Assembly: GCA_024707325.1 (NCBI GenBank)
Contig: JANPZY010000001.1
Location: forward strand, 682,001-746,000
Direction: 5' to 3'
Source: Opitutus sp.
Lineage (GTDB): Bacteria > Verrucomicrobiota > Verrucomicrobiia > Opitutales > Opitutaceae
Length of the DNA: 64,000 nt
Made by a program: the position numbers and the translations under genes. A model generated the notes under the pieces. The model did no database searches. It was not told the origin of the DNA and worked only from the letters and a program-made list of their open reading frames with translations. Below, piece by piece: positions 8,298-51,026 of the stretch. Numbering within the stretch: the stretch's first letter is position 1; each line of letters begins with the position of its first letter.

Positions 8298-8411
8298 GTC
8301 CGCACCGAGTCGTGCCACAGTCCGGCACGACTCGGGACAAGGTGCGGATCATGTCGAGCCAAGGTCCGAACCGTCTCGAACCACCGTGCGGACCAAGTCG
8401 CGACAAGGTCC
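8298..8411 (+). repeat. 22-bp phased repeat array 1 (five units)
   Basis: Five consecutive 22-bp units begin at 8298, 8320, 8342, 8364 and 8386 with no indel, followed by a partial unit. Each unit is an 11-bp half like GTSCGKMCCRN followed by a half like GTCGSGMCAAG (S=G/C, K=G/T, M=A/C, R=A/G). It starts 5 bp after the symporter stop and lies between convergent genes. Because 22 is not a multiple of three, the short open frames with repeated RDKVR-like words across it are artefacts. Confidence 0.9.
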
Positions 8412-8416
8412 TAACA

Positions 8417-8524
8417 GGTGGAGCCCGCCGTCCCCGGCGGGTTTTCTTTTGTGTGCCGCTGGCGTGCGAGGGCCGCACACGTAGGCGAACATCGCCCAGC
8501 CCGGCGGGGACGCCGGGCTCCACC
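8417..8524. repeat. REPIN-like inverted pair; left half is a terminator
   Basis: The left arm GGTGGAGCCC... (8417-8441) and the right arm GCCCGGCG...CTCCACC (8499-8524) are inverted copies of one 25-bp palindromic sequence, separated by about 57 bp. The left arm folds as CCCGCCG/CGGCGGG followed by TTTTCTTTT (8424-8450) and can terminate the symporter transcript. A second such pair occurs at 27197-27277 and a single arm at 11490-11515. Confidence 0.75.
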
Positions 8525-11275: not shown

Positions 11276-11423
11276 ACCGGGTCGGGACTAAGTGCGGCAC
11301 GAGTCGCGCCTCTGTCTGCACCAAGTCGTGCCTGAGTGCGTCCCGAGTCGGGACAAGGTCCGGACCAGGTCGAGCCAAGGTGCGTTCACGGTCGAGCCAT
11401 GGTGCGTCCACGGTCGAGCCACG
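11270..11423 (+). repeat. 22-bp phased repeat array 2 (six and a half units)
   Basis: Units start at 11292, 11314, 11336, 11358, 11380 and 11402 in perfect 22-bp register, preceded by a half-unit at 11281. The TTCTGAACCGG at 11270-11280 aligns with the other half-unit, so the array probably begins within the stop codon of the preceding small gene. It is followed 67 bp later by a REPIN-like single arm. Confidence 0.9.
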
Positions 11424-17806: not shown

Positions 17807-17883
17807 GGAAGCGTGTGAGGTCCGCAGTAAGCGTGCGCGCTCCGCGAAGTCAAACGAGCCGGCCGTCACCTGATGCGGAACAC

Positions 17884-18038
17884 GTTGCGGACCGCGTCGC
17901 CCCCCTGTGCGCACCGAATCGGGCCAAAGTCCGCCTCATGTCGTGCCCCAGTCCGTCCCGAGTCGGGACAAAGTGCGGACCGAGTCGAGCCAAGGTGCGA
18001 ACACGGTCGCGACAAGGTGCGGCACGAGTTGAGGCATG
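17884..18038 (+). repeat. 22-bp phased repeat array 3 (six full units plus one 23-bp unit)
   Basis: Units start at 17907, 17929, 17951, 17973, 17995 and 18017, all exactly 22 bp. The unit before (17884-17906) has one extra base. Half-unit forms are the same as in the other arrays, for example GTGCGGACCGA followed by GTCGAGCCAAG at 17973. It lies between two minus-strand genes, in the orientation opposite to their transcription, and fills the gap of over 300 bp together with a short hairpin element. Confidence 0.9.
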
Positions 18039-23557: not shown

Positions 23558-26797
<3,240 letters not shown>

Positions 26798-26898
26798 GGG
26801 CGTGGATTTCGCCGAGGGTTGAGACCGCCGAAACGCGCGGCAAGCGGGAAAGCGGCACCGCATTGCAAATCGGGCGCTCCTCCACCCTCGCGCCGCCC

Positions 26899-27074
26899 TT
26901 TGGCTCGACTCGGAGCGGACTTAGGCGCGACTCATGCCGCACTCCGTCCCGACCCAGTCCGCACCTTGTCCCGACATGGGACGGACCTTGGCTCGACCCG
27001 GGACACACCTTGTCCCGACGTGGGACGGACACGGGCGCGACCTAGGACGCACTTTGGCTCGACTCGGCAGGGAC
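26899..27074 (-). repeat. 22-bp phased repeat array 4 (eight units, minus orientation)
   Basis: The longest array: eight units of exactly 22 bp in register (26899, 26921, 26943, 26965, 26987, 27009, 27031 and 27053). Read on the minus strand they take the same form as elsewhere, for example GTCCGTCCCAT followed by GTCGGGACAAG. It lies 100 bp upstream of carB and is followed by hairpin and REPIN-like elements up to the next gene. The whole 530-bp gap 26798-27328 is thus made of repeats, with no gene. Confidence 0.92.
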
Positions 27075-27167: not shown

Positions 27168-27189
27168 AGCTCGGAGAGCCGTCCCTGCC
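27168..27189 (+). repeat. Short interspersed element (CTCGGAGAGCC family), copy 4
   Basis: AGCTCGGAGAGCCGTCCCTG then CC, close to copy 2 (18044) and inverted relative to copy 3 (27066). It sits directly before a REPIN-like pair. Confidence 0.5.
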
Positions 27190-27196
27190 CGCTCAA

Positions 27197-27277
27197 GGTG
27201 GAGCCCGGCGTCCTCGCCGGGCTGTCCGAGCTTTGCCCGGCGAAACAAAAACCCGCCGGGGACGGCGGGTTCCACCT
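27197..27277. repeat. REPIN-like inverted pair; right half is a minus-strand terminator
   Basis: GGTGGAGCCCGGCG... (27197-27222) faces CCCGCCGGGGACGGCGGG then TTCCACC (27252-27276). Read on the minus strand the right arm is CCCGCCG, loop TCCC, CGGCGGG and TTTTTGTTT, almost identical to the terminator hairpin at 8424-8450. It can end the transcript of the regulator at 27329. The two arms are 81 bp end to end, shorter than the 108-bp pair at 8417. Confidence 0.75.
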
Positions 27278-27328: not shown

Positions 27329-28573
27329 TTACAGCGGGACGCCGAGGATTTTTTCGGCGGCGGCTTTGTCGCCACGGCAGGCGTGCAGGACCATCTCGCG
27401 ATACTGCGCTTCCTGTTGCGCGAGGTATTCGGCGAGCGTGGGCCAGCTCTTCATCTCGCGGAGGCGCAGCGGAAGTTGTTCGGAGGTGACGATGCGCGTA
27501 TCGGTCGTGGCCGCGATCTGCGAAACGACCTGGTTGAGTTCGGCGAGATTTCCCGGCCAGCGATAGGTGGCGAGGATCGCGAGGGTGTCGTCGGTGAACT
27601 CGATGAGGCTCGCGTCGAAATTCGGATTCGTGGCCTGCGAAGCGTAGTGTTTGACCAACAGCGGAAGGTCTTCGATGCGCTCGCGGAGCGACGGCATGTG
27701 CACGGGCAGCGAGGCGACGCGGTAGAAGAGTTCGTCGTGAAACTTGCCCTCGTCGGTGAGCAGTTCGAGGTCGACCGTGGTCGCGCAGATGAGGCGGAAA
27801 CCGTGCGCAGTGTTGCGCAGGACGCTGACGAGCTCCTTTTGCGCAGCGAGCGAGAGATGCTCGAGATGCTGGAGGAAGAGCGTGCCGCCCTTGGCCTGGC
27901 GGACCCAGTTGCCGCCTTCGCCGTTCTCGCCGAGGAGGCCTTCGCGAATGTGCGCTTCAGACGCGAGGGCGCAGTCGACGCGGATGAATTGATTATCGGT
28001 GGCGCCGAGCGCTTCGTGGAGCAGCTCCGCGACCATGAGCTTGCCGGTGCCGGCTTCGCCCATGAGGAGCACAGGCGTGCGCGCGGCGGCGAGTTTGCGG
28101 ATCTGCTGGATGAGGCGGCGAACGACCGCGCTCTGGCCGACGATGCGGGCCTCGATATCGCCCTGTTTCACGGCCGACGCGGCGCCGCTCGCGGCCTGCT
28201 CGCTTTGGAAATCCTTGAACTCGATGCCGCGGCGGAGCGTGGCGATCAGTTCGTCCACGCGGAATGGTTTTTGCAGGTAATCAAACGCCCCGAACTTCAG
28301 TGCCTGCACCGCGCTCTCGGTGGAGGCGTAGGCGGTCATGATGACGACGATGGCGTTGGGATCGTAGGCCTTCAGCTGCTTGAGCAGCGTGATGCCGTCC
28401 ATCGGCTTCATGTCGATGTCGGCCAGCACGAGGTCGAACTTCTCCGTCTTGTAACGGGCGAGCGCCTTTTCGCCATCCGTGGCGAAGGCGGTCTGGAAGC
28501 CGGTCGGCTGGATGACGGCGCCGAGCATCTCGTGGATCGAGAGCAGGTCGTCGACGATGAGGACAGAAGGCAT
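27329..28573 (-). CDS. NtrC-like response regulator with degenerate AAA+ domain
   Basis: From ATG 28573 (MPSVLIVDDLLSIHEML) about 414 residues. The receiver domain is complete (VDD, FDLVLADIDMKPMDG with the phospho-Asp, MTAY and LQKPF). The following sigma-54-activator-type AAA+ domain is eroded: Walker A reads GEAGTGKL without the Ser/Thr, the GAFTGA loop is missing, and the Walker B position reads TLFLQHLEHL without the acidic pair. LRERIEDLPLL and YRWPGNLAELNQV remain. The C-terminus stops at AAAEKILGVPL, within what would be the first half of a Fis-type HTH. It is probably not a sigma-54 activator and may act by protein contact. The adjacent pilC suggests a link to pili. Confidence 0.82.
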   Translation of the reverse strand: MPSVLIVDDLLSIHEMLGAVIQPTGFQTAFATDGEKALARYKTEKFDLVLADIDMKPMDGITLLKQLKAYDPNAIVVIMTAYASTESAVQALKFGAFDYLQKPFRVDELIATLRRGIEFKDFQSEQAASGAASAVKQGDIEARIVGQSAVVRRLIQQIRKLAAARTPVLLMGEAGTGKLMVAELLHEALGATDNQFIRVDCALASEAHIREGLLGENGEGGNWVRQAKGGTLFLQHLEHLSLAAQKELVSVLRNTAHGFRLICATTVDLELLTDEGKFHDELFYRVASLPVHMPSLRERIEDLPLLVKHYASQATNPNFDASLIEFTDDTLAILATYRWPGNLAELNQVVSQIAATTDTRIVTSEQLPLRLREMKSWPTLAEYLAQQEAQYREMVLHACRGDKAAAEKILGVPL

Positions 28574-37608: not shown

Positions 37609-37773
37609 TCGTGGCGCGAGTCGAGCCTCGCACCGCACCACGTCGCCCCCAAGTGCGGACCGGGTCGGGACTCGTTGCGTCCCACGTCGAGCCAAGGTCC
37701 GTCCCATGTCGGGACAAGGTGCGCGCCGGGTCGCGCCACGTGGCGGCACGAACCGCACCGCTGTGCGGATGTG
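37609..37773 (+). repeat. 22-bp phased repeat array 5 (about seven units)
   Basis: Register is exact from 37631: units at 37631, 37653, 37675, 37697, 37719 and 37741, with weaker halves on both sides. The clearest pair is GTCCGTCCCAT followed by GTCGGGACAAG at 37697, identical to units in array 4. The array lies between convergent genes (mlaA and the gene at 37780) and ends about 6 bp before the latter's stop codon. Confidence 0.88.
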
Positions 37774-50850: not shown

Positions 50851-51026
50851 CTCGGGCGCGAGTCGGGACAGCGTGCGACCTGAGTCGAGCCACGGTCCGG
50901 ACCGGGTCGCGCCAAGGTGCGTCCACGGTCGGGACAAGGTGCGGACCGGGTCGGGACAAAAGAAAGCCCGAGTCGCGCCAGGGTGCGGCACGGCTCGGGA
51001 CGAAAGGCGGCGCGAGTCGGGGCTGA
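50851..51026 (+). repeat. 22-bp phased repeat array 6 (about eight units)
   Basis: Full units start at 50873, 50895, 50917, 50939, 50961, 50983 and 51005, all exactly 22 bp, with a weaker unit before. Examples are GTCCGGACCGG followed by GTCGCGCCAAG and GTGCGTCCACG followed by GTCGGGACAAG. The last unit ends at 51026, directly against the stop codon (51027-51029, minus strand) of the coiled-coil gene. Confidence 0.9.

Follow-up and report, generated by a model that had tools for sequence, protein, structure and literature searches.

Evenly spaced intergenic arrays of phased 22-bp units in an Opitutus genome, putative docking platforms of a DNA-binding protein

Described repeat systems and the arrays

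The REP/BIME elements of E. coli and other bacteria share with the Opitutus arrays described here a copy number in the hundreds, an intergenic position behind gene ends and restriction to a lineage, and BIMEs have been described as bound by several proteins (PMC2817692). The arrays differ in being built of direct tandem 22-bp units rather than a 20-40-bp hairpin palindrome, near-dyads being confined to 8-bp words, in being evenly spaced, and in belonging to a genome where the RAYT-type transposase family is not expanded. STRR or heptamer repeats of cyanobacteria and Beggiatoaceae likewise form many intergenic sets of short direct repeats. The TAACTGA arrays of Beggiatoaceae, however, consist mostly of exact heptamers lying mostly just upstream of start codons (PMC4679880), whereas the arrays here are made of degenerate 22-bp units built of words, lie nearer to stop codons, are few at divergent promoters and have neighbouring units that are not duplicates.

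Uptake signal sequences (USS/DUS) resemble the arrays as a genome-wide, species-specific self motif, but the arrays comprise ~13 phased half-units each, occur at much lower density, are intergenic, and have isolated counterparts near background only. Such uptake sequences have accumulated by molecular drive in Haemophilus and Neisseria. Features of CRISPR are missing from the arrays, which have no spacers and whose units are degenerate, not near-identical. A genuine CRISPR-like array, made up of 162 copies of the repeat GTCGCGCCCCACGCGGGCGCGCGGATTGAAAC, is present at C3:659562-670263, ~12 kb to the left of the window (the whole 64,000-nucleotide stretch analysed, C3:682001-746000 of a 4.04-Mb genome in four contigs). 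REP/BIME, STRR/VNTR, CRISPR and uptake sequences each fail to match the arrays in a tested defining feature.

Some plasmid centromeres are 11-bp (ParR/parC) or 7-bp (omega) direct repeats bound cooperatively by dimers, and like the arrays they are tandem direct repeats with a period near one helical turn. They occur once per plasmid beside partition genes, in contrast to ~350 arrays per chromosome for which no matching protein was found. The SegB sites of Sulfolobales are scattered on the chromosome and linked to its organisation and segregation, but are 13-bp single palindromes, ~50 per genome and mostly intragenic, unlike the arrays (PMC12284271). The non-random genome-wide distribution typical of sites for chromosome-organising proteins (NAP or partition type) is found for the arrays also.

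Arrays of the window and the anatomy of their units

The window contains exactly six arrays, the number given in the earlier note, whose observation is confirmed, although it understates the case. Array 4 occupies 26888..27063 on the minus strand, between carB (23558-26797, minus strand) and a gene for a response regulator/sigma-54 activator (27329-28573, minus strand), both identified by Pfam. It was correctly described as eight 22-bp units (GTCGAGCCAAA, GTGCGTCCTAG and so on) without an indel, but its assigned limits, 26899-27074, are 11 bp, or half a unit, out of phase. The units score 7-26 bits, and Tandem Repeats Finder calls the array at periods of 22 and 44. The remaining arrays are all on the plus strand: array 1 (8309..8418) with five units, array 2 (11281..11412) with six units and one degenerate partial unit, array 3 (17874..18027) with seven, array 5 (37620..37773) with seven, and array 6 (50862..50993) with six unit positions, of which one has decayed. 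Convergent genes lie on either side of arrays 1 and 5. Arrays 4 and 5, on opposite strands, have 38 exact bases in common. A terminator-like palindrome, GGTGGAGCCCGCCGTCCTCGGCGGG, together with a TGTCATTCTGAGC element, is found at 27185-27275 of the window and dispersed at many other loci, often near arrays.

Each unit consists of word 1, 3 bp, word 2 and a further 3 bp. The commonest forms of word 1 are GTCGGGAC, GTCGAGCC, GTCGCGCC, GTCGCGAC and GTCGTGCC, and those of word 2 are GTGCGGAC, GTGCGCAC, GTCCGCAC, GTGCGTCC, GTCCGGAC, GTCCGTCC and GTGCGGCT. The words are discrete and internally correlated, for example GTCG(GGA|AGC|CGC|CGA|TGC)C, with single-step intermediates between them being rare and unit positions 5 with 7 and 17 with 18 covarying. 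Both words had been described as near-palindromic, which holds for two base pairs in each: pairs 1-8 and 3-6 of word 1 and pairs 1-8 and 4-5 of word 2 are complementary in 66-95% of units, as opposed to 26-56% for the remaining pairs (random 28%).

Base identity within arrays is 0.62, 0.63 and 0.61 at lags of 22, 44 and 66, compared with 0.44 at lag 11 and a random value of 0.29; the true period is therefore 22 bp with a weaker but real 11-bp sub-period, and the earlier proposal of a true period of about 11 bp is too strong. The 22-bp register is kept in 619 of 634 successive unit pairs. Only about seven of the 634 show a true shift of +/-1, so the frequent indels that the earlier note had named as a sign of chance or one-off duplication are missing. 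Unit scores are highest in the middle of an array and drop symmetrically to background within ~6 units, and the off-consensus rate at conserved positions rises from ~7% in central units to ~14% in edge units.

Adjacent units agree at 14.20 of 22 positions versus 13.97 of 22 for units permuted across the genome, a slight excess only, and identity is flat from lag 22 to lag 66, so that the local duplication characteristic of STRR and VNTR loci is lacking and the units are kept up by something other than recent duplication. Recent tandem duplication was rejected on this basis, proximity having no more than a slight effect on adjacent units. The arrays were also rejected as recent copies of one element, since no two of them exceed an in-phase identity of 0.83, and the best value in permuted data is 0.82. 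There is a weak signal in the order of units (418 bits vs 81-145 after shuffling), and some arrays have cores of 38-53 bp in common, which hints at copying long ago or at some constraint that depends on position. Judged from sequence, a maintained pattern would account for the register and words better than neutral decay.

Number, placement and spacing of the arrays

A matrix of the 22-bp unit, built from 1.2 Mb of the genome, found 982 units above 12 bits in that sequence and 26 in its reverse, while a 19-base pattern matched the genome exactly 86 times and not once when read backward, excluding a chance origin of the arrays. The earlier note had regarded a scarcity of arrays elsewhere as the sign of a one-off event; instead, at least 136 arrays with three or more units, 877 units in total, are present in 1.6 Mb (C3:400001-2000000), where the threshold overlooked roughly a dozen more that are short or frame-shifted. 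These 136 arrays have a mean of 6.4 units, a mode of 6-7 and a narrow peak at 5-8. Extrapolation from the 1.6 Mb gives ~340-380 arrays for the whole 4.04-Mb genome, in which a two-unit pattern has 364 matches. Arrays are present on all three large contigs, and single units outside arrays are little above background.

Genes were called with a simple purpose-made program based on hexamers rather than with a standard annotator, and by these calls the cores of 125 of the 136 arrays lie between genes. This, together with a period that is not divisible by 3, led us to reject a coding function, in line with the non-coding nature originally claimed. The arrays lie mostly behind gene ends, favouring convergent pairs and avoiding divergent promoters: convergent gaps have an array in 50 of 152 cases, tandem gaps in 64 of 642 and divergent gaps in 11 of 177. 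The median distance from array to stop codon is 30 bp in convergent gaps, and in tandem gaps the medians are 54 bp from the upstream stop and 153 bp from the next start. Array strand bears no relation to the direction of co-directional neighbour genes (32:32). Neighbouring arrays lie on the same strand in 86 of 135 cases versus 67 expected (p=0.0008; C3:400001-2000000), irrespective of gene direction, and this strand autocorrelation has p=0.014 when limited to arrays of clear strand. Arrays of a 6-bp repeat, GAGAAC/GAGAAA, adjoin some of the 22-bp arrays in this genome.

Array density falls with GC content, from 1.0 per 10 kb at typical GC to 0.3 at 0.58-0.61 and 0 below 0.58 (three GC windows), and a 66-kb low-GC island-like stretch at C3:473848-539826 has no array. 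A second such stretch, C3:1601901-1636066, is also array-free, with a short overlooked array just past its right end. In the 1.6 Mb no arrays lie within 2.4 kb of each other, and the modal distance is 7-9 kb. The spacing was compared with 5,000 random draws of an equal number of gaps, weighted by orientation and measured from gap centre to gap centre. Spacings of 6-11 kb were observed 57 times versus 26.7 +/- 4.6 expected, those below 6 kb 18 times versus 45 expected, and those below 2.4 kb once versus 18 expected. So few close pairs occurred in none of the 5,000 simulations, and the over-dispersion persists outside low-GC regions. The distribution of arrays across the genome is thus non-random and over-dispersed, with approximately one array per 8-10 kb.

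Within the phylum, the arrays appear to be confined to this genome. The one-unit pattern had no match in 387 other genomes of the phylum, the two-unit pattern had none in 251 other genomes of the family (the congener and 250 more), and the congener had none even when one mismatch was allowed. In a wide contig scan the 19-base pattern had at least 54 single matches in unrelated taxa, a chance-like result. Arrays with lags of 11, 22 or 44 but other words were absent from the sequence examined in the congener (400 kb) and in six other genera (~380 kb), which shows just 7-bp or coding repeats, and the orthologous gaps that could be matched in relatives are array-free and mostly shorter. Another Opitutaceae genome (G010:C24, ~439-449 kb) has degenerate 7-bp intergenic arrays with CAGAAGC/CGGAGGC words. 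Viral contigs, phages and plasmids gave no match to the arrays, and a mobile source in any of these was rejected. The literature, mainly open-access papers, yielded no report of such repeats in Opitutus or Verrucomicrobia, and no named family was found to match, as had been stated at the outset.

Putative docking platforms and alternative readings

The arrays are best read as serving a DNA-binding role, as first proposed. We consider them putative docking platforms of a sequence-specific protein, acting as evenly spaced nucleoid or topology anchors, and give this reading a probability of about 0.42. A DNA-level role fits all features of the arrays: register, words, independent-like units, centre-to-edge gradient, placement, spacing, strand-neutrality, and absence from low-GC regions and relatives. 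From these we infer protein binding, its dimeric and cooperative nature, and a purpose in chromosome organisation. A dimeric protein would bind once per helical turn to ~13 near-dyad 8-bp words set 11 bp apart over ~140 bp; loading would be cooperative, beginning at the array centre and spreading outwards into a phased filament. Some 350 such platforms, standing every ~8-10 kb in gaps sheltered from transcription on the chromosome of a single species, would then provide regularly spaced anchors for organising the nucleoid or for topological domains. Bacterial topological domains of ~10 kb are well established, and we know of no DNA sequence that marks them at that pitch. More tentatively, the arrays could represent a novel, species-specific type of positional signal that marks the whole chromosome on the scale of supercoiling domains, with ~13 helically phased putative binding words per array for an undescribed filament-forming protein, each array being independently written from a small vocabulary of words, one per 8-10 kb.

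Several observations weigh against docking. The absence of arrays from all 251 family genomes searched would be unusual for a basic chromosome function, steps of 11 bp drift relative to the 10.5 bp per turn of relaxed DNA over 140 bp, and the order signal and matches of 38-53 bp may mean that part of the pattern is old copying. A search of this genome with Pfam profiles for HU, ParB, RHH, histone fold and Y1 produced no candidate binder: HU and ParB are each encoded once, which is also the case in most relatives, no histone fold was found, one inspected RHH gene has the look of a NikR-type regulator and adjoins a transporter, and Y1_Tnp has one weak match, fewer than in any of the seven relatives searched.

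The main rival, which we regard as unlikely, is that the arrays label self DNA as uptake or packaging signals accumulated by molecular drive. They are species-specific, strand-neutral with respect to genes, evenly spaced and scarce in low-GC islands and promoters, and a passage of PMC1939737 cites Karlin et al. for even spacing of uptake sequences. Known uptake signals, however, are single motifs of ~10 bp at approximately one per kb rather than 140-bp phased arrays, and the near-background level of isolated units here does not favour this reading. We consider equally improbable an old non-autonomous mobile element with target immunity, dispersed early in the lineage, shunning its own copies and later diverging. 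Immunity could produce the over-dispersion, and the shorter array-free gaps of relatives, the residual order signal and the common cores are in its favour. Flanks beyond the arrays are not in common, though, no recent near-identical copies exist, the Y1 transposase family is at its minimum in this genome, and neutral decay would not preserve the register and correlated words.

Still less probable, and disfavoured by us, are neutral degenerate tandem repeats of the STRR or microsatellite kind, arising by slippage and tolerated between genes. The 7-bp degenerate arrays of other Opitutaceae and the 6-bp arrays of this genome give some precedent for them, and positions behind genes are where such repeats are tolerated, but adjacent units hardly more alike than distant ones, the narrow peak in array size, spacing far from random and a single consensus common to the whole genome all speak against slippage. 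An RNA-level role, the alternative raised in the earlier note, fares worst. Elements of 3' UTRs acting as terminators, Rho-binding sites or mRNA stabilisers could explain why arrays lie behind stop codons, why one strand is C-rich with an 11-nt period, a pattern that RNA bound by Rho could also have, and why the arrays fold somewhat better than their dinucleotide shuffles (z ~ -2). They do not explain the even spacing. A Rho or terminator reading was rejected on the exactly 32:32 orientation to the upstream gene, and RNA structure was rejected because the arrays fold no better than units drawn at random or arrays whose unit order was shuffled. No Rfam family matches the window arrays, two tRNAs being the only matches to reach gathering score in the window.

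Unit independence within the arrays represents an unusual form of repeat evolution, in which upkeep is by pattern and not by copying. On the native chromosome of this Opitutus the arrays form a physical mark, regularly spaced and phase-locked, at the ~10-kb scale of topological domains. With the mark absent from foreign-looking islands and from the congener, its gain, its putative binder and its effect on chromosome contacts are directly testable.
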